This document shows positions 2,205-20,893 of a stretch of DNA of 43,125 nt, one piece after another. A model generated the notes under the pieces. It was not told where the DNA came from, did no database searches, and saw nothing but the letters and a program-made list of their open reading frames with translations. The position numbers and the translations under genes are program-made. The stretch is from Acidobacteria bacterium RIFCSPLOWO2_02_FULL_67_21. GTDB lineage: Bacteria > Acidobacteriota > Vicinamibacteria > Vicinamibacterales > UBA2999. Location of the stretch: the NCBI GenBank assembly GCA_001767195.1, contig MEKU01000037.1, positions 22,252 to 65,376 on the forward strand. Reading direction: 5' to 3'. Numbering within the stretch: position 1 is the stretch's first letter; every line of letters begins with the position of its first letter.

Positions 2205-3443
2205 TTACGACGTCGCGCGGGCGGGCGCCGCGGGCACCGGCGTCGGCCCCGCCAGGTGGGGCGGCCGCGCCGCCACGAGCGATCCGAACGACACCAGCGC
2301 CAGCGCCGCGGCGGCATAGAACGCATACCGGTAGTCGCCGAGGGCGTCGAACACCCGCGCGCCGACGATCGGACCGAGGATGCCCGCGACGCCCCACGCG
2401 CTGAACAGCAGGCCGTAGTTCATGCCCAGGTGCCGCGTGCCGTAGAAGTCGGCCGTGGTCGACGCGAACACGGACAGCTGCGTCCCGTAGCACCAGTAGA
2501 CGACGACCGCCAGCAGGTAGAACAGCGCGACTTCCGCGCGGACCGCAAACCAGATCGGCATGGCGAGCGCCGACATCAGAACCATAACCCGCAGCGTCGT
2601 CAGGCGGCCGAGCGTGTCGGACAACCACCCGGACAGGATGCGGCCACCGGCGTTGCCGACCGCGCCCATCGTGATCGCGAAAGTCGCCGCCGCGGCGCTG
2701 AGCCCGGCCTCGCGCGCGAACGGCACGAGCTGGCTGATCACCATGAGGCCGGCGGTGGCCCCGAGGCAGTAGGCGATCCAGAGCAGGTAGAATGTCGGCG
2801 TCCGCAGCATCTCCGACGGCAGGTAGTCGCGCGCGGTCCGCTGGGCGGCGGCGCCGGTCTGAGGCGGCGTCCAGCCGGGAGGCTGATAGCCGGCGGGCGG
2901 ATTCTTCAGCAGCGCCGCGCCCACCATCCCCATCACGAAGAAGAGCGCGCCGAGAACCTGAAACGTCAGCCGCCAGCCCACGCCGCCGATCAACGAGGTG
3001 GCGACCGGCCCGAAGACTGCCGAGCCGGCGCCGTACCCGCCGACCATCAGGCCGACCACGAGGCCGCGCTTGTCCGGAAACCACTTCGAGGCGACCGGCA
3101 CCGGCGTCGCGTACCCGAAGCCGTTGCCGAGTCCGACCACCACGCCGAAGATAACGTAGAGGTAGAGCAACGACGCCGTGAAGCTCGCCAGGATGAACCC
3201 GAGGCCGACAAGCGTCGCGCCCAGCGCGGCGGCGATTCTTGGTCCCCGCCGATCCTGGATGCGGCCGCCCAGGATGAACGAGGCGGCAAACGTCACCACG
3301 GCGATCGTGAACGTCCAGGACGTCTGCGCACGCGTCCAGCCGAATTCCTGCTCGAGCGGGAGCACGAAGACGCTCCAGGCGTACAGACTGCCGAGCGCGA
3401 GGTTCATGCAGACGCCGCCGACGACGGGAAGCCATCGATTCAT
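2205..3443 (-). CDS. OFA-family MFS transporter (oxalate/formate antiporter-like)
   Basis: A 412-residue inner-membrane protein with about twelve hydrophobic segments and the start MNRWLPVVGGVCMNLALG typical of OFA (oxalate:formate antiporter) transporters. The conserved N-terminal LGSLYAWSVFVLPLE and GGRIQDRRGPR, the usual MFS loop 2-3 motif, are visible. The family exchanges or imports small mono- and dicarboxylates. The ATG at 3443 follows GGAGCG in the leader. It is directly upstream of an acetyl-CoA synthetase-like gene, so a carboxylate that is afterwards activated to its CoA ester is a reasonable substrate (inference). Specificity cannot be read from the sequence. Confidence 0.85.
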   Translation of the reverse strand: MNRWLPVVGGVCMNLALGSLYAWSVFVLPLEQEFGWTRAQTSWTFTIAVVTFAASFILGGRIQDRRGPRIAAALGATLVGLGFILASFTASLLYLYVIFGVVVGLGNGFGYATPVPVASKWFPDKRGLVVGLMVGGYGAGSAVFGPVATSLIGGVGWRLTFQVLGALFFVMGMVGAALLKNPPAGYQPPGWTPPQTGAAAQRTARDYLPSEMLRTPTFYLLWIAYCLGATAGLMVISQLVPFAREAGLSAAAATFAITMGAVGNAGGRILSGWLSDTLGRLTTLRVMVLMSALAMPIWFAVRAEVALFYLLAVVVYWCYGTQLSVFASTTADFYGTRHLGMNYGLLFSAWGVAGILGPIVGARVFDALGDYRYAFYAAAALALVSFGSLVAARPPHLAGPTPVPAAPARATS

Positions 3444-4647: not shown

Positions 4648-6846
4648 TTACCGTGACGCAACGGCCTGCGCCTGAGAGCGCAGCGCCTGCAGGTCCTTCT
4701 CGGTGCGAATCACCATCCGTCCCGCCCTGCTGGTGCCCCAGAACGACGTCACCACCTGCACCACACCGTCCCTGTCGAGTACCGACAGGTGACGCGGCGC
4801 GGCGCCGCGGCTCGGCCAGTAGTACTGCGTCCACCTTTCGCTCTGCGGGTTCAACATGGCCACCTGATCGTCGCCCTGCACGTTGACCCAGACGTTGTGG
4901 CTGTTATCGATGGCCGGCATGTACGCACCCATGCCGTTTCCTGGAAGCGGATAGATCTTGTGGTCCATCGTTTTCCCGTTCAGCCGCATGAGATTGCCGC
5001 CCGCGAACAGGCCGACCCAGATGTCGTCGGTCTGCTTGTCGGCTGCCAGGCGGCGCGGTCCCTGCTGCCACGGCGGGCCGTTCGTGGAGTTCGCGAATGT
5101 CACCGTTTCGTAGAACTGGATGTCCTCCGGTGTGATGTCCTTGGCCGAGACAAACGTATTCTTCGGAACGTCGAACTCGAGCGACTTGCCGGTGGCGACG
5201 TCGCTGTAGCCGAGCTTGTCGATCGCAATCTCCGCCCACCAGCCGACGCCGTGACGGTCAGCGGCCACCCCGTACGTGCCCGACCGCTCCCTGGTCAACG
5301 ACTTGAACTCCTTCCACTCGCCCGCCCGAGGGTCGAAGCGGAGAGCGCCATCTCGGGTCGAGGCCCAGATGAATCCCTTGCCGTCCCAGTCCACGTGTCC
5401 GCCGACGCCGCCGATCCCCTTGGGCGGCGTGTAAATGTCGATCTTTCCGGTCTTGACATCGATCCTGCCGAGACTGCCGGGAGTGCCTTCGCCGTCGCCC
5501 ATCGCACCCGCGCCGGCGCTGCCGCTCACGTTGACCCACATGTTGCCGTCAGGTCCACGCATCATGCCGTGCGTGGTGGCCGCGTTGCCGTTGCGGCCAG
5601 GGATCTTGAAGTCTGTGACTTCGCCCGTCTTTGTGTTGATACGGCCGTACGTCCGGTTCCTGCTGCCGACCGAATAGGTGAACCAGATATTGCCGGCGAA
5701 GTCGATCGAGGCGTCGTGAACGCCGCGGACGCCGTACGAATTACTCGGCGTCCCGAGCGACCAGTCGCTGCCGTTCTGGACGGCATAGCCGCCGTATTCC
5801 TCGAGCGGGATGTCGTACTCGTAGACGACCGGCAGGGTCGCCGCTCCGGTCGGACGTGGCGGGATCTTGAACTGCATCGGCGAGGGCCCCGACCCGCGCA
5901 TCTCCGCGAGGTACGCCGCCAGCTCGTTCTTGTACCGGCGGATGTGTGGAACCTCCGGGCCCATCCCCTGTGTCGCGGTCAGCCGGGTCATCAGCGTGAT
6001 GATGGCCTCCCACCCGGCCTCGTCGTACCGGTTCTGCAGCGCCGTCGCCGCCGTATGGCACGTCGTGCAGTTGTGGACGAAGACGTCGCGCATCCGGCGG
6101 CGATGCGGCGTGTCGGTCGGCAGCGCCGCGACGTACTCGCCGCCGCTGAGCTGCCTTACGAAGTCCTTCGTCTCCTTCAGGGTGAAATCGCGGCGCTGCG
6201 ATGTGCCCTGGAGAGTCATCTCGGCGCGCGCCGCGTCGAAGCCAACCGCCTGCGCCCAGACGCGGTACGACCCGCCCGGCATCGCCGGGAAGTAGTAGCT
6301 GCCGTCCTTTCCGGTGAACACGCTGGCCGTGACCATCTCGCCGTCAGCTTTCGCGGAGACCGTCACGCCTTCCATCGTCTCGCCGGAGGCCGACCTGATG
6401 GTGCCGGTCAGGACGACCGGGCTGCCAGCCGGCCGCCTCGGCGCCGCGACACGGAGGGGCTCCTGCGGCCGCGGTGTGCTGTCAACCGTCTGCAGGTACG
6501 CCACGATCGCGTCCACCTGCCCCGGCTCCAGTGCGTACTTGAACCCCGGCATGACGCCAGGCCGTCCCGTCAGGACGGTCTCGCGGAACCGGCCGGCGGC
6601 GTCGACGAGATCCCTGTGCAGCCGCGGACCGTATGCGCGGTCGCCGCGCGGCCCGGGGATGTGGCAGACCGAGCAGTTCTGTTGAAACAGCCGGAGCCCT
6701 TCCTGCTGCACACTCGTCAGCGCCGGTCGCGAAGCGGCCTGCGCCTCAGAAGAGGGCGCCTGGGCGCTCACGTCGTTCGAGGCCCTCGCCAGCCCCACTC
6801 CCGCACACGTCGTGAGCGCGAACCCGACGATCACAAGGCGTCGCAT
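4648..6846 (-). CDS. secreted diheme cytochrome c / carboxypeptidase-regulatory / Vgb-like beta-propeller fusion
   Basis: A 732-residue periplasmic protein. In order: signal peptide (1-29); a cytochrome c domain with CSVCH at 58-62 and a likely Met ligand at residue 99 (GVMPGF); a carboxypeptidase-regulatory-like Ig fold (about 145-225); a second heme site CTTCH at 260-264; and a virginiamycin-B-lyase/SMP-30-like beta-propeller (about 345-725) with repeated GNIWFT-, GNMWVN- and DDIWVG-type blades. The ATG at 6846 follows GAGGGAGGGACT, a strong ribosome site. The same modules occur at 24.1-26.4 kb as two genes, with the first cytochrome domain separate. The Vgb fold is named after streptogramin lyases, but fusion to hemes makes an electron-transfer or oxidoreductase role more likely; the substrate is unknown. 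Confidence 0.8.
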   Translation of the reverse strand: MRRLVIVGFALTTCAGVGLARASNDVSAQAPSSEAQAASRPALTSVQQEGLRLFQQNCSVCHIPGPRGDRAYGPRLHRDLVDAAGRFRETVLTGRPGVMPGFKYALEPGQVDAIVAYLQTVDSTPRPQEPLRVAAPRRPAGSPVVLTGTIRSASGETMEGVTVSAKADGEMVTASVFTGKDGSYYFPAMPGGSYRVWAQAVGFDAARAEMTLQGTSQRRDFTLKETKDFVRQLSGGEYVAALPTDTPHRRRMRDVFVHNCTTCHTAATALQNRYDEAGWEAIITLMTRLTATQGMGPEVPHIRRYKNELAAYLAEMRGSGPSPMQFKIPPRPTGAATLPVVYEYDIPLEEYGGYAVQNGSDWSLGTPSNSYGVRGVHDASIDFAGNIWFTYSVGSRNRTYGRINTKTGEVTDFKIPGRNGNAATTHGMMRGPDGNMWVNVSGSAGAGAMGDGEGTPGSLGRIDVKTGKIDIYTPPKGIGGVGGHVDWDGKGFIWASTRDGALRFDPRAGEWKEFKSLTRERSGTYGVAADRHGVGWWAEIAIDKLGYSDVATGKSLEFDVPKNTFVSAKDITPEDIQFYETVTFANSTNGPPWQQGPRRLAADKQTDDIWVGLFAGGNLMRLNGKTMDHKIYPLPGNGMGAYMPAIDNSHNVWVNVQGDDQVAMLNPQSERWTQYYWPSRGAAPRHLSVLDRDGVVQVVTSFWGTSRAGRMVIRTEKDLQALRSQAQAVASR

Positions 6847-6874
6847 AGTCCCTCCCTCGGCGAAACCCGAGAAC

Positions 6875-6905
6875 GCCGGACGGCTGCTGCCTGCAGCCGT
6901 CCGGC
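6875..6905 (-). terminator. 13-bp GC-rich hairpin after the TonB receptor gene
   Basis: GCCGGACGGCTGC, a TGCCT loop, then GCAGCCGTCCGGC form a perfect 13-bp stem. It sits in the 65-bp gap between the TonB-dependent receptor stop and the cytochrome/propeller start. There is no clean T-run after it on the minus strand, so it may be an attenuator, an mRNA-stabilising hairpin or a dispersed repeat rather than a classical terminator. Confidence 0.6.
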
Positions 6906-6911
6906 CCATTC

Positions 6912-8645
6912 CTAGAACGTAATCTGAGTGCCGATCTTCAGCAAGCGTCCCACGACGATCTCGTTCGGCCGCAGCCAGGCTGCGCCGTACCTGGTGGTCA
7001 GCCGCAACACAGAGTTCGCATTGAGCGCGTTGAACACTTCGAAAGTGCCCAGCACGCGCGCCCCCTTGATCTGGAACGCGCGGCTCAGCCGGAGATCCAG
7101 CTGGCGCCGGCGGTCTTCCCGCATCGTGAACGGCTCGATGAGCTGGACCGTGCGCGTTGCACGGGCACCAGCCGCCTGATCGCGCCCAAGGCTCGGCGCA
7201 ATCATCGCGTTGGTCAGCACATGATCCGCCGAAACATCGATGCCGGGCAGGTCCTGGAAGGTCGCGCTGACCGAGAAGTCCGCCGGCATCGGATACACAC
7301 CGTAGATCCGGAAATTCGTCTGCGCGGCAAACGGCAGGGTCTGCTTGCAGAATCGCAGCGCTTCCGGGGAATCGACGGCCGCATTGCAGTTGTCCGTCAC
7401 TGTCTGACCGGTGCTGACGCCGCCCGCGACCTGGGCGCCGTTCGGAAACCGGCCGCGCATGTTGACGTCGATGCCGTTGTACACCTCGGACCTGTCGGCC
7501 TGGATGATTAGGTTGTCCACCTGGCCAAACCTCGACGGGACGACGTCGTAGAGGCCGCAGATCCGCTCGCCGCCGCCCGGCAGCCGGCTGTCCGAGGGAC
7601 CCGTGACGCAGAACTCCTGGAAGTCGGCCGGTGTGACCGCCACATTGTCGGTGACAGTGAGATTGCCGTACCAGGTGCGGAAGTAACCCGCATCGAACGC
7701 AAGGCCGGGGCGCAGTTCATGCTCGATGACGGCAGACGCCTGCCAGTTGTACTCACGATTGCCGAAGCCCTTACGCACATCGTCGGCCAGCCGCGTGCGG
7801 ATCAGCTGCGTGCCGAAGGCCCGGTTGGATGACAGGCCGAGCTCGCTTTCCTGCGACGTCCAGTCCCGGTTCAGATCGTTCCAGGTCCGCGTGGTGGCGA
7901 ACACTTCCGTCTGAGAAGGGGAATTGGCGGCAGCGAGCGACGTCGACCCGATCGAGACATACCGCCCCAGCGAAGCCTTGAGCGCGGTCTTGCCGTTGTC
8001 GAACAGGTCGTAGGCGAAGCCCAGCCGCGGCGACAGATCCTTGAAGTTCGGGAGGTCGTCGGTCCGGGGGTAGTGGCGCGCCCCCACCCATCGACCGGCC
8101 GGAGCGTCCATCTCCGGGCTCCAGCCGTTCAGCATGTCGAGCCGCACTCCCAGATTGAGCGTCAGCTGGCGCGTGGGCTTCCACTGATCCTGCGCGTACC
8201 ACGCGGTGTTGACGGCCCTGGCACCGTTCACGCCGGGCGTCGCAAACTGTGTAATCGAGTTCGGGACGCCGTTGAGCAGCGTGTAGAGCACGTCGCCGTT
8301 CGTGTTCGTCTCGTGGTCGGTGGAGGCATACATCCAGAACAGGCCGGTCTTGAAGTTGTGGGACCCCGTCACGTACGACACCGCGAACCGGCCGTTGTAC
8401 TGGTCTTCGTACAACGCGCCGTAGCTCCGGCCGGGGAATACGGTGTTGGAGAAGGCCCGGGCGTTGAACGTGAGCCCGTTGGCGAGCTCAACGAGAGCGA
8501 TATCGCTGGAATTGACGCCTGTATTCGGGTCGGCGAAGAAGTCCCACTTGTAGTACATGGCGCCCGCGTCGAACAGGAGCCGGCTGGTAGCAGGATAGCT
8601 CCACGTCACCTGCGAGATGTCCTGCTTGTACTCGTGGAACGACAT
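6912..8645 (-). CDS. TonB-dependent receptor, C-terminal beta-barrel portion (separated from its N-terminus by a frameshift)
   Basis: About 577 residues from the first in-frame ATG. The same frame carries receptor-like sequence up to about 8849 (FNKNHGTDRFFIYEPD and onwards). The content is outer-membrane beta-barrel: alternating hydrophobic strands, aromatic residues, TonB barrel motifs such as LSPRLGFAYDLF, and a C-terminal end IGTQITF. It lacks its own signal peptide and plug, which lie in the next frame (8668-9606), so it is unlikely to be functional alone. Acidobacterial receptors of this form combine a carboxypeptidase-regulatory domain, plug and barrel in roughly 950-1000 residues. The two parts here sum to about 897, implying that some 80-100 codons are missing at the junction. 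Confidence 0.8.
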   Translation of the reverse strand: MSFHEYKQDISQVTWSYPATSRLLFDAGAMYYKWDFFADPNTGVNSSDIALVELANGLTFNARAFSNTVFPGRSYGALYEDQYNGRFAVSYVTGSHNFKTGLFWMYASTDHETNTNGDVLYTLLNGVPNSITQFATPGVNGARAVNTAWYAQDQWKPTRQLTLNLGVRLDMLNGWSPEMDAPAGRWVGARHYPRTDDLPNFKDLSPRLGFAYDLFDNGKTALKASLGRYVSIGSTSLAAANSPSQTEVFATTRTWNDLNRDWTSQESELGLSSNRAFGTQLIRTRLADDVRKGFGNREYNWQASAVIEHELRPGLAFDAGYFRTWYGNLTVTDNVAVTPADFQEFCVTGPSDSRLPGGGERICGLYDVVPSRFGQVDNLIIQADRSEVYNGIDVNMRGRFPNGAQVAGGVSTGQTVTDNCNAAVDSPEALRFCKQTLPFAAQTNFRIYGVYPMPADFSVSATFQDLPGIDVSADHVLTNAMIAPSLGRDQAAGARATRTVQLIEPFTMREDRRRQLDLRLSRAFQIKGARVLGTFEVFNALNANSVLRLTTRYGAAWLRPNEIVVGRLLKIGTQITF

Positions 8646-8667
8646 CGCCTCCGGCGCAATGAGCCCT

Positions 8668-9606
8668 TCATAGATCTGCGGGCAGTTGCAGGACGGCTGG
8701 GCATCGTAGAGGAAGGTCAGCTTGTGCTTCTCTGCGGCCTGCCATGTGAACCGTGCGTTGTAGCTCCGGCGCGGAAGCTTCGAGTAATGCGGCCGGCTTG
8801 CGTCGGGCTCGTAAATGAAGAACCGGTCGGTGCCATGGTTCTTGTTGAATGTTCCCGCCCTCCCGGGGCACCACGTTCATCTGCACGCCCCCGGTTTCGC
8901 TCTCGGCCGACATTCCGCTCGTCTGGAACGTGATCTCCTGGACGCTAGCCTGGTTGATCGCCTGGCTGGAAAAGCCGCCGCCCTGCCCACCGCGGTGGGC
9001 GCGCATACCATCGATATTCACGATCATGTCGCCGCCGCGGCTGCCGTGAATCCCAATGCTGACCTGTGTGTCTCCGAGGCTACCGCCGACGTCCTGACGG
9101 ATGGCCGGGACGGAAGCTCCGGGCATCAACGTGCCGAATCCGAGCGCTGTGCGGCTGACGGGGAGCTCATCCAGCACGTCGCGCGAGAACACCTGCTGCG
9201 TGCGCACGTTGGACGTGTCGACAATCGGGCTCTCTCCCGTGACGGTGATCGTCTCCTCCACCGCGCCGACCTGTAAATCGGCGTTGACGGCCGCCGTGAA
9301 GCCGGTCGTCAGCTCGATGCCTTCGCGCCGGACGGTGCGAAATCCGGGCAACATAAAGGTCACCGTGTAGGTGCCGGGCCGCAGGTCCACGATGCTGTAC
9401 GCACCCTGGCCGTCGGTGACGGCTGTCCGCACCTTTTCGATCAGCGCCGGGCTGGACGCTTCGACGGTCACGCCGGGCAGCACTCCGCCCGACGTATCAC
9501 GGACGACGCCGCTGATGGCGCCGCTGACGGCGGTCTGCGCAAATGCGCCGGCTGGCGGCAGCAGCAGCAGCGCACACACGGCCAACCGAATGCTCTGGAC
9601 CTTCAT
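8668..9606 (-). CDS. TonB-dependent receptor, N-terminal portion (signal peptide, carboxypeptidase-regulatory domain, plug), frameshifted
   Basis: The ATG at 9606 follows GGGAGGAAAGAG. Signal peptide at 1-24, carboxypeptidase-regulatory-like domain at about 27-112 (SGVVRDTSGGVLPGVTVEA), then a plug domain from about 115 with VTGESPIVDTSN and HGSRGGDMIVNIDGM. Receptor-like sequence runs to MNVVPREGGN (residues 243-252, near position 8851). After that the frame becomes Arg/Pro/Leu-rich and has no receptor character until its stop at 8668. The expected continuation lies in another frame from about 8849. The break is therefore an out-of-frame junction at about 8850. The protein would have been an outer-membrane importer for a glycan, peptide or chelate; the ligand is unknown. 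Confidence 0.8.
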   Translation of the reverse strand: MKVQSIRLAVCALLLLPPAGAFAQTAVSGAISGVVRDTSGGVLPGVTVEASSPALIEKVRTAVTDGQGAYSIVDLRPGTYTVTFMLPGFRTVRREGIELTTGFTAAVNADLQVGAVEETITVTGESPIVDTSNVRTQQVFSRDVLDELPVSRTALGFGTLMPGASVPAIRQDVGGSLGDTQVSIGIHGSRGGDMIVNIDGMRAHRGGQGGGFSSQAINQASVQEITFQTSGMSAESETGGVQMNVVPREGGNIQQEPWHRPVLHLRARRKPAALLEASAPELQRTVHMAGRREAQADLPLRCPAVLQLPADL

Positions 9607-9699: not shown

Positions 9700-10764
9700 C
9701 TACTGCTCCAGCACTGTCGCAGGGAGGCGCTCGTCCCGCATCTCGATTGCCGGGTCCTTGCCTTCCTTCTCCAGCTTGCGGGCACCCTCGAGAATGTTCA
9801 CCAGGCCGTTGTTCCCTTCATGACAGGCGTACTCGAACATCGGCCCCTCGACCCTGAAGAGGGGAAGAATCGCCGTCCACGGCCGGACCCAGGTCGACGG
9901 GTCGTCCACCGTGTACCGGTATTCGATCGTGTCGGCGTCGAGCCGCGTGAACCGCTCCGTGAGCTTCACCATCGCGGGATTGGACCCTTCCGGCTCTGAG
10001 CCGGGCTGGAAGTTTCTCGACTCGATCACCAGCGTGTCGCCTTCCCACCGCGCGCGCGGTTCGCCGCGCCAGAACCGGATCTGCCCGGACGTATGCGGAC
10101 GCGACGCGAGCGGCACGACCCGCGTGGAGCTGCCCCATTCGTACTCGAAGACGACGTGGTCCTTGCCCTGCAGGATGAAGGTGTTGTGGTTGTAGGCCCT
10201 GCCGGCCGGAATGGGCGGGCCGCCGAACGTCAGGCACCGCAGTCCGGCCCCGGCGGTTTCGGGGCCGTCGTACCGGTTCCGCTGCGGTGACGACGACCGG
10301 CGACGGGCCTCGGGGGTCAGCTCCGGCAGCCTCCCGGTCTCCGGGGCGACGACGAGCGAGGTGCGCCGGTTCGGCCTGACGCCGTTCTGCCACGGATCGA
10401 GCGCATACACGGTGGCATCGTAGACAGGCGTCTCGGCCGGGTTCTGGAACGTGAATTCGTACGACCGATCGATGCCGAGCTTGAAGAACTGCTGGAGCTC
10501 CTCGTCGGTGAAGAACTCGCGCATGCCGAACCGCTCGGGGCGTTCGAACGGCGTGAAGCTGAGACTGTTCCAGTACCCCTGCAGGTCGGGATGACCGTCG
10601 GGCGTCCGCGGCACCTTCCAGCCAGGCGCGGGCTTCACCGGAGCCGGCGCCGGCATGGCCGCTGGGGCGGGGTCACCTGGGGGCGCCTGAGCTGCGAGCG
10701 ACGCCGTTTGAATGGCGAGCACCGCGATGCCAACTAGATACGCCGGAAGCTTCGTGTACGACAT
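9700..10764 (-). CDS. secreted protein of the uncharacterised WKVPRTPDGHPDLQG family (copy 1)
   Basis: A 354-residue protein from the ATG at 10764, preceded by GGAGGATGGG. Signal peptide, then a Pro/Ala linker, then the family signature WKVPRTPDGHPDLQG at about residue 70. Later family blocks are GDTLVIESRNF, ERFTRLDADTIEYRYTV, WVRPWTA and FEYACHEGNNGLVNIL. Four other copies lie at 18.9-23.0 kb. I know of no assigned biochemical function; such proteins are usually annotated as hypothetical and occur beside TonB-dependent receptors and DUF6152 genes. It lies 26 bp after the NHL-repeat gene and just upstream of the receptor, so it was probably co-transcribed with both. Confidence 0.75.
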   Translation of the reverse strand: MSYTKLPAYLVGIAVLAIQTASLAAQAPPGDPAPAAMPAPAPVKPAPGWKVPRTPDGHPDLQGYWNSLSFTPFERPERFGMREFFTDEELQQFFKLGIDRSYEFTFQNPAETPVYDATVYALDPWQNGVRPNRRTSLVVAPETGRLPELTPEARRRSSSPQRNRYDGPETAGAGLRCLTFGGPPIPAGRAYNHNTFILQGKDHVVFEYEWGSSTRVVPLASRPHTSGQIRFWRGEPRARWEGDTLVIESRNFQPGSEPEGSNPAMVKLTERFTRLDADTIEYRYTVDDPSTWVRPWTAILPLFRVEGPMFEYACHEGNNGLVNILEGARKLEKEGKDPAIEMRDERLPATVLEQ

Positions 10765-10790
10765 CCCATCCTCCACGATCCCACTATAGA

Positions 10791-12074
10791 TCAATCCATC
10801 AGCGGTCCAATCAGCTGGGACGCGCTGCCGTCCTTCCGCGGCGTGTACTTCTGCAGCCGCCAACCGAAGTCTTCACCCGTATACAGATTGCCCTCGCTGT
10901 CCGTGGTGAAGTAGTGCAGCCCCAGCCATGCGCCCGGCGCATTCCCGAAGGTTCCCCACGTCGTACCGGGAATGAGCTGGCCGGTGAGCGCGTCGTATTT
11001 CTGAATCTTCATCGCAGCCCCATCCCCCACCCACAGGTACCGGCCGTCCTCGGTCAAACGAATCGCATACGGCCCTACGATGTTGGGCCACATATCGAGA
11101 AACTTTCCGTTCAAATCGAACACCTGGATCCGAGACATGATGCGATCCGCCACATACAGCCGGTTGCGCGTGGAATCGATCTGGATCCCGTGAATGCCTC
11201 CGGCGTGGCGGTTGGCCGTCATCCCGAACTCGCCCGGGCCTGTGCCCGGCTTGCCGAAGTGGGACACGTACTTCCCGTCCTTCGTGAATCGGGTCACCCA
11301 CGCCGCTCCGGACGCGTAGATGTCGCCGTTCGAGGCAAAGGCAAAATGCTCGATCATCAGGAAGTCCTTCTGCGGGTGATCCGCCGGAAGCGCTTTCTCG
11401 TCGATCGACCGGATGTGCTTCTTGCCGTCTCGCGACAACTGAACGAGAGGCCCCGAGGTCGAAATCCAGAGCGGACGCTCCGGGTCATAGACATTGGGAT
11501 GAATCAGCTGCATCTGGTTCGGCCCGAGGATCGGAATGTAGTGATCCCACGTCTCGACGACCTTTCCGTTGCGGTCGAAGACGACGATCATGTACTGGTT
11601 TTTCTGGATGTCATCTCCCCTGGCCATCATCGTTCTGCCGCTGTAGCCCCCGAGAAACGCCGGGCCCCAGTACCCCATGAACGGCCGCTTGCGCCACCCG
11701 TAGCCGACGACCAGCAGGCGATCCGGCGATTCGGGATAAAACCCTTCGGCGCTGATCTGCCAGCCGGACTCCACTGGCGGCGGCCAGTTCTTCGCTATTT
11801 GGTACGGGCCAGTGATCTCCTGGCCGCCTTTTCCATTGACGGGTGCGTAATCGTCGTGCACGGCCATCGGCCCGAGTGGCAGCTTCCAGACATCGGGCCG
11901 TTCCGACACCTCGGGCGCCTCCGCCGCCACCGTGTTGCCGGAAGGCGCCGCAGCCCCGGCTGCGCGGACCTGATCCGGCTCTCCCAGCAGCGAGGTCACA
12001 AGCAGCGTGGCTCCGGACCCGACCGCGAGGAACACCAGCGCACGCGCCACCGATCCAGTTAGAGAGTTCGCCAT
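10791..12074 (-). CDS. membrane-anchored or secreted NHL-repeat beta-propeller protein
   Basis: A 427-residue protein from the ATG at 12074. An N-terminal hydrophobic segment (ALVFLAVGSGATLLVTSLL) acts as signal peptide or anchor. The rest is a propeller with NHL-type blades: FTKDGKYVSHFGKPGTGPGEF, IDSTRNRLYVADRIMSRIQVF and DSEGNLYTGEDFGWRLQKY. The closest recognisable architecture is the peptidyl-alpha-hydroxyglycine alpha-amidating-lyase-like propeller, but no catalytic residues can be assigned from sequence alone. It follows the SBP-NHL fusion by 34 bp and precedes copy 1 of the unknown family by 26 bp. The blade sequence resembles the propeller half of its upstream neighbour, suggesting local duplication. 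Confidence 0.75.
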   Translation of the reverse strand: MANSLTGSVARALVFLAVGSGATLLVTSLLGEPDQVRAAGAAAPSGNTVAAEAPEVSERPDVWKLPLGPMAVHDDYAPVNGKGGQEITGPYQIAKNWPPPVESGWQISAEGFYPESPDRLLVVGYGWRKRPFMGYWGPAFLGGYSGRTMMARGDDIQKNQYMIVVFDRNGKVVETWDHYIPILGPNQMQLIHPNVYDPERPLWISTSGPLVQLSRDGKKHIRSIDEKALPADHPQKDFLMIEHFAFASNGDIYASGAAWVTRFTKDGKYVSHFGKPGTGPGEFGMTANRHAGGIHGIQIDSTRNRLYVADRIMSRIQVFDLNGKFLDMWPNIVGPYAIRLTEDGRYLWVGDGAAMKIQKYDALTGQLIPGTTWGTFGNAPGAWLGLHYFTTDSEGNLYTGEDFGWRLQKYTPRKDGSASQLIGPLMD

Positions 12075-12108
12075 AACACTCGCCCGTTGTGGTCGCCGTC
12101 TCGGCAAC

Positions 12109-13899
12109 CTACCGGCTTGACGTCGTCGCTCTGTCCGGACGCAAGATGAGTTTCTGCATGCGCCAGTTCAGAAGCTCTCCCACATATAGCTCGTTCTCGG
12201 ACGGGCACGCCATGGCATGCACCCAGGCGAACTGCCCAATTTTCTTGCCGGCGGTGCCGATCGTGCCGAGGAGCTTCCCGTCCAGCGTCATCTTGTAGAT
12301 GTAGCCGGGGATCGCCTCGACCGCATACAGGAACTGACTGGCCCCGGGGTTGATGCAGATCGCCAGCGGGTAGAGCGAGTTGTACTCGCCGCGATCGTTC
12401 ATCCCGAACCCGGGGATCGGCGGCGGCGTGCGGCTCAGGGGCAGCGGCCGAGGGATCTCCCGAAGGAACTCGCCCTCCGCATTGAACACCTGGATCCGCG
12501 CATTCGACCGATCCGAGACGTACACGTTGTCCTTGTTGTCGATCGCGATGCCGTGCACCAGATTGAACTGGCCGGGCTTGGTGCCCCGCTCGCCCCAGCT
12601 CTTGACGATGTGGCCGTCCCGATCGAATTTTGCCACGCGCGAATTCCGATACCCGTCGGACACGTAAACGTTGCCGGCCGAGTCGAAGGCCACGTCGGTC
12701 GGCCTGTTGAATATGCCGGGCTGCGCCGGCGGCACCGGGTTCGGCTCCCTCGGCGGGTCGTAGGCCTCGACCGATTCGGGTCTCCGACCGAGGACGATCA
12801 AGGGCCGGCCGTCAGGCGTGAGCTTCACTACCGTGTGCGATCCGTTGTCCACGAGCCAGATATTGTCCTGCCGATCGAAGCGCACGGCGTGCGCCTGCGC
12901 CATCGAGTACAGGTTGTGCCCGATCTCCCGGATGAACTTGCCGTTGCGATCGAACTCGAACAACTGCGCGTTGCGCATGCCGCGGATGGCGGCCGGTGAT
13001 GCGGTCCGGGCGTACACGAAGATATTGCCTTTGGAATTGACAGCCACGCCGGCGACCTCGCCGAGATACATCCCGTCCGGCAGCCGCAGCGGCTCCGAGG
13101 CGTCGAACGGAATGGCGGGCGCACTGGTCACCTGCTGCGCCGCTGCGCCCGAGCCGGGCTGCATCCGCAACTCCCGGTAGACCGCGGCGGCGGCAGGCGA
13201 GGATATAAACGTCAGAAATGCCCTGGCGGCCTCGCCAACCTTTGTCTGTGCCGAGATAAACGCCACATGCGGGATCGGCGCGATCAGCGCTGCCGGCAGT
13301 ACACCGAGGACCTCGATCCCGGGATCGTGGATCTCGCTGCCGAACGTCACCGCCACGTCAACGTCGCCCCTGGTCACCAGCTCCTCGAGGCTGACGCCCT
13401 GCACACGCTTGGCCTTCGGCTCCATCTCGGCCGCGATGCCGAGCTTCTTGAACGCCTCGACGACCCGGTCGCCGGCCAGCGTGGCGCCGGGCGGGGGAAA
13501 CGTAATCGCCCTGGCGCCGAGCAGCATCTTGCGGAGCCCGTCGGGCGAAGTGACATCCGACTTCGGTGCTCCCCTCTTCACAACGACCACGAACGACGCG
13601 TCGGCCAGCCGCGTCTCGCTGCCGGCGACAACTTGCCCAGACTTGACGACGTCGCCGTGCGGGGACTGAACGATCGGAATGTCGAACGGCTCGCCCTTGA
13701 TCACTCGTGCGCGGGTTGCACCGCCGCCCCCGAATGTCGCCTTCACCCGGTGGCCGGTCTTCGCTTCGAAGAGCGGGATCAGCTTCTCCATAGCCGCGCG
13801 GATCCCGCCGGGACCGATCAACGTGATCTCGTCGGCGAACGCGCTCATCGGCGCGCACAAGATCAGGGCAATCAGCGTCGCACGAATCTGTTTCACCAC
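12109..13899 (-). CDS. ModA-like periplasmic binding protein fused to an NHL beta-propeller
   Basis: A 596-residue secreted protein starting at GTG 13899 (a second GTG follows), preceded by AAGGAGCCGGAT. Signal peptide at 1-22. Residues 24-250 are a type II periplasmic binding domain of the molybdate/sulfate-binding class: ITLIGPGGIRAAMEKLIPLFE, FGGGGATRARVIKGEPFDIPI, and the domain-ending FLTFISSPAAAAVYRE. Residues 270-590 form an NHL propeller with blades such as VAFDSAGNVYVSDGYRNSRV and DNKDNVYVSDRSNARIQVF. No permease or ATPase gene is adjacent, so this is unlikely to be a standard ABC importer component. The binding domain may act as an oxyanion or small-anion sensor or scaffold. It is the first gene of the minus-strand secreted operon. 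Confidence 0.8.
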   Translation of the reverse strand: MVKQIRATLIALILCAPMSAFADEITLIGPGGIRAAMEKLIPLFEAKTGHRVKATFGGGGATRARVIKGEPFDIPIVQSPHGDVVKSGQVVAGSETRLADASFVVVVKRGAPKSDVTSPDGLRKMLLGARAITFPPPGATLAGDRVVEAFKKLGIAAEMEPKAKRVQGVSLEELVTRGDVDVAVTFGSEIHDPGIEVLGVLPAALIAPIPHVAFISAQTKVGEAARAFLTFISSPAAAAVYRELRMQPGSGAAAQQVTSAPAIPFDASEPLRLPDGMYLGEVAGVAVNSKGNIFVYARTASPAAIRGMRNAQLFEFDRNGKFIREIGHNLYSMAQAHAVRFDRQDNIWLVDNGSHTVVKLTPDGRPLIVLGRRPESVEAYDPPREPNPVPPAQPGIFNRPTDVAFDSAGNVYVSDGYRNSRVAKFDRDGHIVKSWGERGTKPGQFNLVHGIAIDNKDNVYVSDRSNARIQVFNAEGEFLREIPRPLPLSRTPPPIPGFGMNDRGEYNSLYPLAICINPGASQFLYAVEAIPGYIYKMTLDGKLLGTIGTAGKKIGQFAWVHAMACPSENELYVGELLNWRMQKLILRPDRATTSSR

Positions 13900-14028: not shown

Positions 14029-15285
14029 TTATTGCGCGCCTCGCCTGGAAACAACGCCTGCGAGGAGGCGGGCGGGCTCCTCGATGACGCGGCGGAATTC
14101 GGCCAGGAATCTGGCCCCCGTCGCGCCGTCGATGGCCCGGTGGTCCGCGGCCAGCGTGCACGACATCCTGAGTCCGACGCCGACCTGCCCGTCCCGGACG
14201 ACCGGCTGCTCGGCGATCGCGCCCACACCCAGGATGCAGCTTTGAGGCGGATTCACGATTGGCAGCAGCATCCCGATGCCCTCCATGCCCAGGTTCGAGA
14301 TCGTAAAGGTCCCTCCGCTGTACTCCTCAGGGCGGAGCCGCCCGGCGCGGGCGCGTGCGATGAGCGCCCTGAGTTCGGCTGAGATGGTGCGAACATCCTT
14401 CTCGTCCGCGCGCCTGATGATCGGCGTGATCAACCCGTTCGACGTGTTGACCGCCACCGCAACATCGCATATCCGAAAGATCCTCAAGACGCCGTCGGCG
14501 AAGCTGGAATTGGCCTCGGGCACCCGCCGTAGCGCGAGCGCGGTGCCGCGGATCACGAGGTCGGTCACCGACAATTTCGACTCAGCGTCGGCCGCGTTCA
14601 CCCGTTGGCGAAGCTGCACGAGCGCATCAGCGGCACACTCGATCTGCAGGTAGAAGTGAGGCACCGTTTGCTTGGCGACCTGCATCCGCTCGGCCGTGAC
14701 CCTGCGCATCGGCGACAGACGCTCCTCGACGTAGTCGAGTTCCGGATGCGGGGCTCCGCGTTGGTGGGCACGCTGCACATCACGCCTGCCCACCCGGCCA
14801 TCAGGTGCTGTGCCGGGAACCCGCCTCAAGTCCAGATTCAGCACTTCCGCCATTCGACGCGCCAAGGGCGTTGCGGGAACGTCGCACGCCTCGGACACGA
14901 CAGCTGCCGTCGATTCCGGGCCTGCGGTTGTACTGACAGCGACGGACGCCACCGGCTGAACTTCTTCAGGACGTTCAAATGGCATCGAAGGTCGTGCATC
15001 GCCAGCCTCCGCTCGCCCGGTGCTGGTGGCGTCAAGCGGCATGATTTCCGCCAGCAACATTCCGACAGATGGCGTTGCACTGCCGGGAGGCGCGTGAATC
15101 TTGACCAAGGTGCCCGAGGCAGGTGCCTGCAGCTCGACGATGGTCTTGTCGGTCTCGACTTCCGCGATCACTTCCCCGGCTTCGACGCGTTCACCCTCAG
15201 CCTTCAGCCACCCGGAGATCTTCGCGGATTCCATCGATTCCGCGATCTGGACCAGACGCATCTCAACCGGCATCGCGCGATTCAT
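14029..15285 (-). CDS. dihydrolipoamide acyltransferase (E2) of a 2-oxoacid dehydrogenase complex
   Basis: A 418-residue cytoplasmic protein whose ATG at 15285 overlaps the E1 stop as ATGA, so translation is coupled. Domains: one lipoyl domain (about 5-80) with the lipoylated lysine in VETDKTIVEL; an Ala/Thr/Ser-rich linker; a peripheral-subunit-binding domain (TPLARRMAEVLNLDLRRVPG); and a C-terminal catalytic domain with FTISNLGMEGIGMLLPIV and the active-site DHRAIDG. It transfers the acyl group from lipoyl to CoA. With the homodimeric-type E1 upstream, pyruvate is the likely substrate. No E3 with a clear complex-specific role lies next to it; the MerA-like gene at 40.4 kb is remote and in another operon. 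Confidence 0.88.
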   Translation of the reverse strand: MNRAMPVEMRLVQIAESMESAKISGWLKAEGERVEAGEVIAEVETDKTIVELQAPASGTLVKIHAPPGSATPSVGMLLAEIMPLDATSTGRAEAGDARPSMPFERPEEVQPVASVAVSTTAGPESTAAVVSEACDVPATPLARRMAEVLNLDLRRVPGTAPDGRVGRRDVQRAHQRGAPHPELDYVEERLSPMRRVTAERMQVAKQTVPHFYLQIECAADALVQLRQRVNAADAESKLSVTDLVIRGTALALRRVPEANSSFADGVLRIFRICDVAVAVNTSNGLITPIIRRADEKDVRTISAELRALIARARAGRLRPEEYSGGTFTISNLGMEGIGMLLPIVNPPQSCILGVGAIAEQPVVRDGQVGVGLRMSCTLAADHRAIDGATGARFLAEFRRVIEEPARLLAGVVSRRGAQ

Positions 15286-17675
15286 CGGGCCTGAAGGCCC
15301 CCAATCAGAATCGTCGCGGCCGCGCTGATCATCGCGTCTGTGTCGATACCATTCACCGCGTAAAGGGCTGGAATGTCTCCGGATTGCCCGAAATGCTCCA
15401 CGCCGAGTGGAACCACCGTATGTTGGCGAACCGATCCCAGCCAGGAGAGCGTCATCGGATGCGCGTCGACGACCGTTATCAGTCCTGCGTCTCGAGCCAG
15501 CGGAGAGAGCAACGCATCGACATGCGGCTGAACCGCAGCATCGCCATGGCCGTTGCGCCGACAGCGAAGCCATCCCTGGTGAAGCCGATCCGGAGACGTC
15601 ACAACCAGCACTCCCAACCCTGGAACGTCCTCGACCATCGCTTCGTACGCAGCCACAGCCTCGCGTACGACTGGGCCGCAGCACACGATCGCCAGTTCGG
15701 CACCGGGTTCGGGCGGCGTCAGCCAGTACCCCCCCTCAACGACGTCATGCGCCAGCTCTGGCGACATCTCACGTGTCGGCTGTGCGAGAGGGCGCGTCGA
15801 TAGCCGCAGGTACACGGATCCGCCCTTCTCCGATTGGAGATGCTCGAGACTCCACCTGACGATCTCGAGCAATTCATCGACGTACGCGGGCTCGAACGCT
15901 GTCAGCCCGGGCTGCCCGATGCCGATGAGCGGGGTATACACCGACTGATGCGCGCCGCCTTCCGGAGCGAGCGTCGTCCCGGACGGCGTGGCGACGAGCA
16001 GAAATCTGGCGTCCTGATAGCACGCGTAATTCAGCTGATCGAGCCCTCGCGCGATAAATGGATCGTACACCGTGCCGATCGGCAGCAGCCGTGTGCCGAA
16101 CAGCGGACCGGAGAGGCCGAGCGCGGCGAGCAACAGGAACAGATTGCTTTCCGCGATGCCGAGCTCGATGTGGTGACCGTCCGGGGATTGTGACCACTGC
16201 TGGGCAGATGTGATGGAGCGCAGCCGAAACATGTCAGGCACGGCGTGCCGGCTGAACACACCCCGGGCGTTCACCCACCCCCCGAGGTTGGTGGAGACGG
16301 TGACGTCTGGTGAGGTAGTGACGATGCGACTCGCGAGCTGCGGATAGTGACGCGACACATCCACCAGCCACCGGCCGAAGCCTTGCTGCGTCGACATCTC
16401 CGCCGACATGGGTATCGTCAATCGTTCAGGAATGTTGATCAGAGGCGCGTCGAACCGGCGCGGCGGCGCGCCGGCGAACGGGCTGCCCGCCACGAACTCA
16501 CGAATCGCCGGCTCGGGGACGTCCACTCCCGCAAACGCATCCCACTCCTCGCCCTCGGCTATGCCCATCGATTGCCGCAGGGCGGCAACCTGTTCCGGCG
16601 ACATCAAGCCGGAATGGTTGTCCTTGTGCCCGATGAACGGCAGCCCGTAACCCTTGATCGTGTACGCCACAAAGCAGGTGGGCTGGTCATCCTGTGCCCG
16701 CGCGAACGCGTCGTGGATCGAGCCGAAGTCGTGACCCCCGAGATTCGTCATAAGGCGATGCAGACCGGCATCGTCATACTCGTCGAGCAGTTGCCGGATC
16801 CCGGCGGTGTCGCCGATCGCCCGCGTCAGCTCGCGCCGCCAGGCAGCCCCGCCCTGAACGACCAGCGCCGAATACAACGTGTTGGAGCAGCCGTCGAGCC
16901 AGTCGCGCAGCGCGTCGCCACCCCCCTTGAGAAATGCTGCCTCCAACTCCTGCCCGTACTTCAGCGTGATGACGCGCCAATCCATGGCCTCGAAGACCGA
17001 CTGAATCGGCCGCGTCGCGCCGTCAGCGATTACCGCGTCGAGACTCTGGCGGTTGTAGTCGAAGATCCACCAGACGTTCCGGATCCGATGTTTCGACGCT
17101 TCGTATAACGCCTCGAATACGTTCCCTTCGTCGAATTCCGCGTCACCCTGCAGCGCGACCATGCGCCCCAGAACCTGCGAGCCGTCCGCGAGGCCCTTGA
17201 GGCGGACGTAGTCCTGCACGAGCGCGGCAAAAATCGTGATTGCCGCCCCGAGGCCGACCGATCCGGTTGAAAAATCAACGTCGTCAACATCCTTGGTGCG
17301 CGACGGGTACGCCTGCGCGCCGCCTAAACTGCGAAAACGCTCCAGATTCGTTCTGGTCTGGCGGCCGAGCAGATATTGAATGGCGTGATACACCGGGCTC
17401 GCATGCGGCTTGACCGCAACGCGATCCGACGGCCGGAGCACGTCGAAATACAGCGCCGTCATCAGCGTCGACACGGACGCGGATGACGCCTGGTGACCTC
17501 CGACCTTCAGCCCATCACGCCGCGGTCGAAGATGATTGGCATGGTGAATCATCCAGACCGCCAGCCAGAGCACCTTCCGCTCGAGCGCCCGGAGGCACGC
17601 GCGGCGCGTCTCCGACAGTCCGGTCTGCGCTGCGCCGGCGATACACGGATTCGCAGTGGACGACCCCACGACCAT
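15282..17675 (-). CDS. pyruvate dehydrogenase E1-like (homodimeric type, transketolase fold)
   Basis: A 797-residue ThDP enzyme. The start chosen is the ATG at 17675 (MVVGSSTANPC); the frame is open for 41 more codons but those lack family character, and the ribosome site here is weak. Visible features: GHQASSAS near residue 60, characteristic of AceE-type E1; the ThDP/Mg motif GDAEFDEGN at 177-185, followed by WWIFDYNRQSLDA; and a transketolase-like pyrimidine domain with ELGIAESNLFLLLAALGLSG. It is about 90 residues shorter than E. coli AceE. It would decarboxylate pyruvate (or a related 2-oxoacid) and hand the acyl group to the E2 encoded next, with a 4-bp overlap. An Lrp/AsnC regulator is divergently transcribed and is a candidate controller. 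Confidence 0.82.
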   Translation of the reverse strand: MVVGSSTANPCIAGAAQTGLSETRRACLRALERKVLWLAVWMIHHANHLRPRRDGLKVGGHQASSASVSTLMTALYFDVLRPSDRVAVKPHASPVYHAIQYLLGRQTRTNLERFRSLGGAQAYPSRTKDVDDVDFSTGSVGLGAAITIFAALVQDYVRLKGLADGSQVLGRMVALQGDAEFDEGNVFEALYEASKHRIRNVWWIFDYNRQSLDAVIADGATRPIQSVFEAMDWRVITLKYGQELEAAFLKGGGDALRDWLDGCSNTLYSALVVQGGAAWRRELTRAIGDTAGIRQLLDEYDDAGLHRLMTNLGGHDFGSIHDAFARAQDDQPTCFVAYTIKGYGLPFIGHKDNHSGLMSPEQVAALRQSMGIAEGEEWDAFAGVDVPEPAIREFVAGSPFAGAPPRRFDAPLINIPERLTIPMSAEMSTQQGFGRWLVDVSRHYPQLASRIVTTSPDVTVSTNLGGWVNARGVFSRHAVPDMFRLRSITSAQQWSQSPDGHHIELGIAESNLFLLLAALGLSGPLFGTRLLPIGTVYDPFIARGLDQLNYACYQDARFLLVATPSGTTLAPEGGAHQSVYTPLIGIGQPGLTAFEPAYVDELLEIVRWSLEHLQSEKGGSVYLRLSTRPLAQPTREMSPELAHDVVEGGYWLTPPEPGAELAIVCCGPVVREAVAAYEAMVEDVPGLGVLVVTSPDRLHQGWLRCRRNGHGDAAVQPHVDALLSPLARDAGLITVVDAHPMTLSWLGSVRQHTVVPLGVEHFGQSGDIPALYAVNGIDTDAMISAAATILIGGLQAR

Positions 17676-17741
17676 ACCGGAACGATAGCGGAAAATCTCC
17701 GCGGCACGATTGCGATCACGCGCTGCGTTTCGCGGGTTTTG

Positions 17742-17754
17742 GCAACAATGTTGC
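17742..17754. promoter_or_regulatory. candidate Lrp/AsnC operator between lrp-like gene and E1 gene
   Basis: GCAACAATGTTGC is a perfect 6+1+6 palindrome in the 154-bp divergent intergenic region, 67 bp upstream of the E1 ATG and 75 bp upstream of the regulator start. Size, symmetry and A/T-rich centre fit binding sites of Lrp/AsnC-family dimers. That the neighbouring regulator binds here is inference. Confidence 0.5.
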
Positions 17755-17829
17755 GCGCAGCGATGCGCCGTGTGTGCAAAATGATCGCCTGACGGCAATT
17801 TCGGAGTATTGTGCTAGGCCTGCCGAACG

Positions 17830-18904: not shown

Positions 18905-19792
18905 CTACTCACTGTCGAGATTCCCATACATCATGTCTTCGACGAACGGCACGCAATTGAAGTCGACCAGTTGCACGTTCGGCTCCATGCGGCGGTACAG
19001 GGGAAACCGGACCTTCCATGGACGCGTGAAGACCTTCGGATCCTCGATCGTCGCTTCGTACTGCATGTGGTAGGGGCTGGCCGGCGTGAAGCGCTCGACC
19101 ACATGCAGCCCATCGCTGTGGAAGTTGCCGGCGCGATCGAACCACGTGTACGGGTTGAACTGCTTCACATCCACGACCAGCGACTCGCCGTCGAACGTGC
19201 CGTTCGACCACCCCATCCAGCTGTCGGCGGGGCCCTCCGGATACGCGTCGGTCAGATGGATCGTGCGCACCGCGTTCTTGAACTCGTACACGATCATGAC
19301 CTGCTCGTCGGTCTGGAAGATCTGGAACGGGAAGGGCATGTAGTTGGCGCGCGGGATGCCGGGCCGGTAGCACTTCAGCTCCGGGTCGCCGGTGTCGTTC
19401 TGGCTGTCGTCGCCGGTGACCCGGACGACCATCCGCTGCGCCGCGTTCTCCTTCGCCTTCTCGGCCGCCCACGGCTGATACGGGATCTCGTTGCCCTCGA
19501 CAATGCCCTGCCCGCCGGGCCAGGCGCCGTACACGCCCATCATCGCGGGATACGGCCCGGCGTACGCGTCGTGATCGAGCACGTCGGCGTTGGCCGTCGT
19601 CATCGCCTGCCAGATGCCGTTCAGATCGGGCCGGCCGCTCACGGTGCGCTGCGCGCGGAAGGACGCCGGAAACGCGTTGGGCGTGCCGGAGGATTGACCG
19701 GCCGCCGGGGCCCCCATAAACATCCAGGCGCCGGCCGCCAGCACCGCCGTGACGGCCGCACCGATCGACAGACTCTTCAGATCTATCCGCAT
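18905..19792 (-). CDS. secreted protein, divergent member of the uncharacterised HPDLQG family (copy 2)
   Basis: A 295-residue protein from the ATG at 19792, preceded by GGGGGAGACTGAC. Signal peptide or N-terminal anchor (AAVTAVLAAGAWMFMGAPAAGQ), then the shortened signature SGRPDLNGIWQAMTTANADV. Later blocks match the family in order: FQIFQTDEQVMIVYEF, FDGESLVVDVKQFNP, VERFTPASPYHMQYEATIEDP and FTRPWKVRFPLYRR. It lacks the C-terminal FACHETNYGLxNIL block in its usual form (VDFNCVPFVEDMMYG instead). Function unknown. It sits 30 bp downstream of copy 3 and upstream of DUF6152 in one operon. Confidence 0.72.
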   Translation of the reverse strand: MRIDLKSLSIGAAVTAVLAAGAWMFMGAPAAGQSSGTPNAFPASFRAQRTVSGRPDLNGIWQAMTTANADVLDHDAYAGPYPAMMGVYGAWPGGQGIVEGNEIPYQPWAAEKAKENAAQRMVVRVTGDDSQNDTGDPELKCYRPGIPRANYMPFPFQIFQTDEQVMIVYEFKNAVRTIHLTDAYPEGPADSWMGWSNGTFDGESLVVDVKQFNPYTWFDRAGNFHSDGLHVVERFTPASPYHMQYEATIEDPKVFTRPWKVRFPLYRRMEPNVQLVDFNCVPFVEDMMYGNLDSE

Positions 19793-19822: not shown

Positions 19823-20893
19823 TCACCTGGCTCCCACTGGCAGCTCACCTTCGGTTCGCGCCCGGCGCCGACTCTCGGTCGGTCCGCCCCGCTTGGCCGC
19901 GGCCATCTGGCTCTTGAGGATGTTCAAGAGGCCGTAGTTCGTCTCGTGGCACGCGAACTCGAACATCGGGCCCGGCGACGTGACCCACGGAAGCTCGCCG
20001 GAGATCGGCGCGGTCCAGGTCGCGGGATCCTCGATCGTGAACTGATAGAGCAGCACGTCCTCCCGGACGCGGGTGAGCCGTTCAACGAGGTGCATCTGCG
20101 GCGAGGCGCCGCGGAAGGAGGTATGGCCCAGATTCGTCGTGTCGATCACCAGCGTGTCCCCGTCCCAGCGCCCGCGCGCGTCGCCAAACCAGCGTGGGAT
20201 GCGCGACGAGAGGTGCGGCCGGCCGTCGAGCGGGATGATGCGATTGTCATTGCTGGACTGCGAGACGATCAACACATAGTCCTTCGTCTGCAGAATCTGA
20301 TGCTCCGCATCGGCGCCAGGCCCGCCCGAGTTGGTGAGCATCGGCAATCCGCCCCAGTACCCCGTGATGCAGCGTTCGGTGATCCCGCGTGAACGGATGT
20401 CGGCGCCGCGCGGCCGCGGGACCGACAGGCGTGCTTTCGCCTCGGGCGTCATCGGCGGGAGCCGGCCGTTCTTCGGGTCGTAGATGACTGACGTCCGCAG
20501 GTTGGCCTTGACGCCGTTCTGCCATTTGTCGAGGCCATACTGCGTGAAATCGTAGTGCACGAGCTGATCGCGGCGGCCGTCCACGTCGGCGGCGGCCATG
20601 TCGTTGTAATAGGCGACGGCCTCCTCTTCGGTGAAGAACTCCTTGTCGGCCAGCTTCAGCGACCGTTCGAGCGACGTATAGGTGCCGTTGTTCCAGATCC
20701 CCTGCAGATCGGGGTGGCCCCAGGCGGTCTTCGACGGCGTCCACGCGGGATCCGACGTCGCTTTGATCACCGGGTTGGGCGCATTCTGCTGCCCATTCTG
20801 CTTCGCGACGGGCGCCGCGCTCCACCACAGCACCAGGATGCCTGCTGCGGCGGTCGCGACCACCGCCGTCCAACGCTTCGACTGCCCTGACAT
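19823..20893 (-). CDS. secreted protein of the uncharacterised HPDLQG family (copy 3)
   Basis: A 356-residue protein. The ATG at 20893 overlaps the upstream stop by one base (TGATG). Signal peptide with WTAVVATAAAGILVLWWSAAPVA, then GHPDLQGIWNNGTYTSLER, FFTEEEAVAYYNDM, and GADAEHQILQTKDYVLIVSQSSND. It continues with IIPLDGRPHLSSRIPRWFGD, GDTLVIDTTN and FEFACHETNYGLLNIL. This is the most complete copy in the cluster and is a useful reference for the shortened and broken neighbours. No catalytic motif is evident. The conserved His/Asn/Asp/Glu-rich C-terminal block could bind a metal or ligand (speculative). Confidence 0.75.
   Translation of the reverse strand: MSGQSKRWTAVVATAAAGILVLWWSAAPVAKQNGQQNAPNPVIKATSDPAWTPSKTAWGHPDLQGIWNNGTYTSLERSLKLADKEFFTEEEAVAYYNDMAAADVDGRRDQLVHYDFTQYGLDKWQNGVKANLRTSVIYDPKNGRLPPMTPEAKARLSVPRPRGADIRSRGITERCITGYWGGLPMLTNSGGPGADAEHQILQTKDYVLIVSQSSNDNRIIPLDGRPHLSSRIPRWFGDARGRWDGDTLVIDTTNLGHTSFRGASPQMHLVERLTRVREDVLLYQFTIEDPATWTAPISGELPWVTSPGPMFEFACHETNYGLLNILKSQMAAAKRGGPTESRRRARTEGELPVGAR

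Follow-up and report, generated by a model that had tools for sequence, protein, structure and literature searches.

The window, meaning the whole stretch of DNA that was analysed, covers 43,125 nucleotides of one contig (MEKU01000037.1, here C37) in the 107-contig draft assembly of a soil-type Acidobacteriota bacterium, RIFCSPLOWO2_02_FULL_67_21. On its reverse strand lies a gene for a ModA-like binding domain (SBP) followed by a PAL-like propeller, an order written here as SBP-PAL. The reading frame opens with GTG and carries an AAAGGAG ribosome-binding site immediately 5′. The gene, its parts, and the neighbours that matter below are as follows.

12109–13899 (−): the whole fusion gene SBP-PAL, 596 aa, a single stop-free ORF
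13834–13899 (−): signal peptide, about aa 1–22 (MVKQIRATLIALILCAPMSAFA), assigned from the sequence and aligning with the signal peptides of standalone SBPs
13174–13827 (−): SBP_bac_11/ModA-like binding domain, aa 25–242 (Pfam, 3e-35; TIGR01256; ModA homologues in the PDB)
13111–13155 (−): junction, aa 249–263 (GSGAAAQQVTSAPAI), the SBP end ...MQPG plus the mature propeller start AQQ, from alignment with standalone SBPs and propellers
12127–13122 (−): PAL-like six-bladed NHL propeller, aa 260–591 (Foldseek, VIA, phmmer)
10791–12107 (−): second, divergent propeller gene, 1 nt after the fusion stop
14029–15684 (−): 2-oxoacid dehydrogenase E2 (lipoyl, E3-binding, and acyltransferase domains), upstream of the fusion
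15282–17798 (−): 2-oxoacid dehydrogenase E1 (aceE/transketolase-like), upstream
6912–9606 (−): TonB-dependent receptor gene, same gene block, downstream
2205–3443: MFS gene, same gene block

The NHL repeats of the propeller half are recognized by Pfam with an E value of 9e-21, and the product is predicted to be an exported, two-domain, periplasmic protein. Since only 1 nt separates the fusion stop from the start of the next gene, the fusion and the divergent propeller gene probably form one operon. Several other features of the gene block were recorded. The TonB receptor gene is broken near position 8850, where the alignment with relatives runs in frame 1 to about nt 757 and switches to frame 2 after a gap of some 70 to 80 missing codons; it is either a pseudogene or the site of an assembly deletion. 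Positions 4648–6909 (−) encode a 753-aa protein that joins cytochrome c, carboxypeptidase-regulatory, and virginiamycin-B-lyase-like propeller domains; at another locus (L126), the two parts look like separate adjacent genes. The genes at 9700–10863, 18905–19792, and 19823–20893 encode secreted proteins of related families with no Pfam match, the first with a TPDGxPDLQGxW-type motif, and throughout the class these families recur beside SBP, PAL, and TonB genes.

Both halves of the fusion protein are full length when aligned with standalone homologues, and all of the alignments fall in one frame. Standalone SBPs from four other genomes (253 to 260 aa, 49 to 51% identity to the fused SBP) stop at the junction, where ...MQPG is followed by K, R, or A and no more than a few residues beyond. 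In the standalone propellers, 50 to 58% identical to the fused one, a signal peptide comes first, in many cases with AQQ after it, and a P-x-I-x-F-D-type start follows; this signal peptide is present in every aligned standalone relative and missing from the fusion. The chain across the joint reads ...RMQPG-SGA-AAQQVTSAPAIPFDA..., so that both the SBP stop and the propeller signal peptide have been lost. There is no stop codon between the halves, and codon-position GC is coding-like, in the same frame, and unchanged over the junction. Because the propeller signal peptide has gone as well, the junction is not the result of a single lost stop. An earlier note on this DNA had described a complete ModA-like domain and a complete propeller in one gene, which the end-to-end matches of both halves to standalone homologues bear out. 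The note had also named a missed stop between the parts as a possible objection; a missed stop or a frameshift at the junction is ruled out by the junction alignments and the coding signal. We conclude that SBP-PAL is a true gene fusion.

Among 193 genomes of the class, no second protein with the SBP-PAL order was found, and one scan of genome contigs yielded just a Micropepsaceae MAG with a standalone propeller. The same pairing in reverse order does occur. Genome G091 encodes a 591-aa protein in which a signal peptide and PAL-like propeller (residues 1 to 360) precede an SBP_bac_11 domain (364 to 586). The earlier note's concern that no other genome might share the architecture thus applies to the SBP-PAL order, and not to the pairing of the two families. 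Standalone proteins of G096, G097, and G135 share 84 to 85% identity with the G091 propeller and have no adjoining SBP gene; in 14 loci with orthologues of the G091 fusion, no SBP gene was found next to a PAL gene, and most relatives have their PAL and SBP genes apart. The two fusions were grouped in 0 of 200 bootstrap trees of 59 propellers, the strongly supported branches require two origins, and the SBP halves of the two fusions are only 32% identical. On these grounds, the pairing arose at least twice, with no common origin. A looser association is seen in G030, where an NHL-propeller gene is followed without a gap by an SBP gene; the Tyr and the third His of PAL are missing from that propeller. 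The literature searched contained no report of SBP-propeller fusions.

A Foldseek search with the structure model, whose confidence is mostly good over the propeller half, ranked PAL (3fvz) first (E 1.9e-22), with TRIM NHL domains below it. The VIA alignment paired model residues 255 to 594 with PAL residues 492 to 820 (Z 32.7, 289 residues, 30% identity), a structural score to be read in the light of the similar Z that TRIM-type propellers obtain; in the phmmer comparison with PAL, likewise, NHL proteins crowd the top ranks. The zinc ligands of PAL are His585, His690, and His786 (3fvz), and these and three further residues all have counterparts in the fusion.

13006–13008 (−): R298, equivalent of rat PAL R533
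12889–12891 (−): H337, equivalent of zinc ligand H585
12649–12651 (−): Y417, in the motif SDGY, equivalent of catalytic Y654
12553–12555 (−): H449, equivalent of zinc ligand H690
12508–12510 (−): R464, equivalent of catalytic R706 (PMC10303134)
12217–12219 (−): H561, equivalent of zinc ligand H786

In these assignments only the Arg533 region is aligned in register with PAL; the motifs of Tyr654 and His585 can be recognized in the stretches of 3fvz that were printed, and the His690 and His786 equivalents are placed by motif and alignment position rather than by a printed residue alignment. All six residues (R48, H87, Y167, H199, R214, and H311 in the numbering of the propeller domain) are invariant in the 12 aligned family members, which share about 50% identity. 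The fold by itself does not account for their conservation, because a same-genome paralogue (L061a) has lost all three His residues. The calcium site of PAL consists of Asp787 and backbone groups, the remaining ligands being backbone atoms; in the fusion the residue after H561 is Ala rather than Asp, and this position varies among relatives. The Tyr/Arg dyad is the catalytic pair of PAL (PMC10303134), which releases glyoxylate from hydroxyglycine-extended peptides (PMC6529398). The propeller half is predicted to bind zinc, and the retention of the PAL zinc and catalytic residues makes a putative zinc lyase more likely than a scaffold. PAL-type chemistry would then be present in a bacterial propeller family; PAL-type reactions were not found for this family in the literature searched. 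Two tandem pairs of PAL-like genes (L061, 6297–8522, and L145, 1137–3378) each combine a copy that has the zinc His residues and the Tyr/Arg pair with a neighbour that lacks the His residues, and they are possible enzyme/pseudoenzyme pairs.

The binding domain matches SBP_bac_11 (PF13531) over profile positions 1 to 222 of 227, and its PDB matches are ModA proteins, with about 20% identity to E. coli ModA. The match to TIGR01256 (modA) is marginal, at 63.0 bits against a cut-off of 62.5. The oxyanion ligands of E. coli ModA (1amf) are Ser12, Ser39, and Tyr170; the fused SBP and its three closest standalone relatives have Gly, Gly, and Phe at these positions. In the structure model the SBP half has a pLDDT below 50, and the ligand site is unreadable from it. 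The genome holds eleven SBP_bac_11 matches, of which the best, C50:13410, lies directly beside a permease (C50:14178) in a separate SBP-permease pair spanning C50:13410–14756; the C80 SBP also adjoins permeases. In contrast, no PF00528 permease lies on the contigs that carry the fusion and the genome's other orphan-type SBP_bac_11 genes (C29, C59, C61, and C62); the PF00528 family is absent from C37 and present on nine other contigs of the genome. The fused SBP belongs to an orphan, transporter-less group. The earlier note's remark that no transporter genes lie nearby is right for ABC transporters; the TonB-receptor and MFS genes do share the gene block. Its label of "oxyanion-type" is unsupported, given the Gly/Gly/Phe substitution and the existence of a separate, permease-linked SBP_bac_11 protein in the genome, and the ligand is most likely a small organic molecule.

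Related orphan SBPs of the class are fused to other domains as well: to a PD40 propeller (G138), to DUF4440 (G002), and to carboxypeptidase-regulatory and TPR domains (G139). In three species of one genus, SBP_bac_11 is followed by a C-terminal region of the carboxymuconolactone decarboxylase (CMD) type (L142, 3325–4641; L143, 3186–4487; L144, 3413–4699); CMD was recognized by Pfam in two of the three, in one below the curated cut-off, and the third (L144) was assigned by its same length and layout. In G104 a standalone SBP of the same type as the fused one is preceded, 24 nt upstream, by a PD40 gene. We kept only fusions with a C-terminal extension or a recognized Pfam domain, and most other long frames around SBPs were spurious upstream extensions in GC-rich DNA. 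The survey covered this bacterial class, and the group is not claimed to be exceptional among bacteria. At locus L145 (6418–8076), between TonB-receptor-like genes and near the tandem PAL pair of that locus, a single protein has carboxypeptidase-regulatory, TPR, and SBP_bac_11 regions. Fused or adjacent genes are commonly taken to indicate functional coupling, and the independent fusions to PAL-like lyases (in both orders), PD40 propellers, DUF4440, and CMD-type proteins suggest, tentatively, that orphan ModA-like SBPs of the class could be a general accessory module of periplasmic enzymes, binding the substrate or product of a tethered or cotranscribed enzyme. We hold this broader idea to be somewhat less probable than not; if true, it would give binding proteins a role outside transport and signalling.

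For the fusion itself, the best reading is a binding-module-plus-lyase protein of a catabolic operon. Overall, we put at about 50% the probability that an orphan SBP without an ABC transporter is joined to a PAL-like zinc lyase of the propeller type and that the two act together. The binding domain would capture the substrate or product beside the lyase, with a possible hand-over between domains. The lyase, through a zinc site formed by His337, His449, and His561 and the Tyr417/Arg464 pair, would act in the manner of PAL, cutting a hydroxylated C-N (or similar) bond and releasing a small 2-oxoacid, which could be taken up to feed the 2-oxoacid dehydrogenase E1-E2 encoded upstream. The link from lyase through 2-oxoacid to dehydrogenase is speculative. 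E1-E2 genes accompany PAL-type genes in few genomes, directly in G089 and about 5 kb away in G106, and in G083 a divergent propeller has E1 alone as its neighbour. The family richest in E1 copies often has its E1-E2 genes adjoining an AMP-binding gene instead, which makes the dehydrogenase path only a guess.

Four other explanations bear on this reading. That the gene is an assembly chimera of two unrelated genes is very improbable. The SBP-PAL order has been seen in just one genome, and that genome is a draft in many contigs, but an artificial joint would have had to fall in frame at natural domain ends, remove both a stop and a signal peptide, and leave the coding signal unbroken; moreover, E1-E2 upstream of a PAL-type gene recurs in other genomes, and independent fusions of the same families exist. 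A molybdate, tungstate, or other oxyanion receptor coupled to the propeller is also improbable, if less so. The TIGR01256 score just above cut-off and the ModA matches in the PDB speak for it, and the ligand-residue test alone is inconclusive, because the permease-linked SBP (C50:13410) deviates from the E. coli residues too; the changed positions, shared with the three closest relatives, the low identity to E. coli ModA, and the lack of a nearby permease argue against it.

Nor do we think it likely that the propeller is non-catalytic and, under gating by the SBP, acts as a scaffold for binding or for protein-protein contacts, which is the half of the earlier note's "ligand-gated scaffold or enzyme" that fares less well. 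TRIM-type NHL propellers, close in structural rank, are scaffolds, and paralogue L061a has lost its His residues; against this, six of six tested PAL active-site residues are present in the fusion and invariant in 12 members, though they can be lost in paralogues. We give more weight, while still considering it the less probable account, to the proposal that the domains need not cooperate and that tethering is mere coexport and coexpression of two proteins of the same pathway. It stays alive because exported chorismate mutase/cyclohexadienyl dehydratase (CM/CDT) fusions, known in both orders, gain no catalytic benefit from tethering (PMC10520331), and the SBPs of this class are joined to a variety of other partners; the repeated pairing of both families in both orders suggests at least a shared pathway.

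SBP-PAL is a new architecture built from known families. Transporter-less binding proteins occur in many bacteria, and the independent fusions of this orphan family to named enzyme families make its role testable: what the binding domain holds, and whether the attached enzyme is helped. Amidation of peptides by PAM has been described in eukaryotes; secreted PAL-like propellers whose active site is intact are numerous in the class examined here, and they may be zinc lyases of some catabolic reaction.

Compared with PAL (EC 4.3.2.5, 3fvz), the fused propeller has the same six blades and the same three His, Tyr, and Arg positions at about 30% identity, whereas the protein is bacterial, has no PHM monooxygenase partner in the gene, is fused to an SBP, and does not conserve the calcium-site Asp. 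The SBP half shares the fold family of ModA and other SBP_bac_11 proteins (1amf) and a full-length domain match, but differs in its Gly/Gly/Phe for Ser/Ser/Tyr, in having no ABC permease on the contig, and in the attached propeller. A close genetic parallel is provided by the exported CM-CDT and CDT-CM fusions, which are rare, occur in both domain orders, and are thought to be independent in origin (PMC10520331). Like SBP-PAL and its reverse, these are exported fusions that contain a periplasmic-binding-protein-derived domain; they differ in involving other enzymes, in belonging to Proteobacteria, and in that the binding-protein fold itself became the enzyme (CDT).
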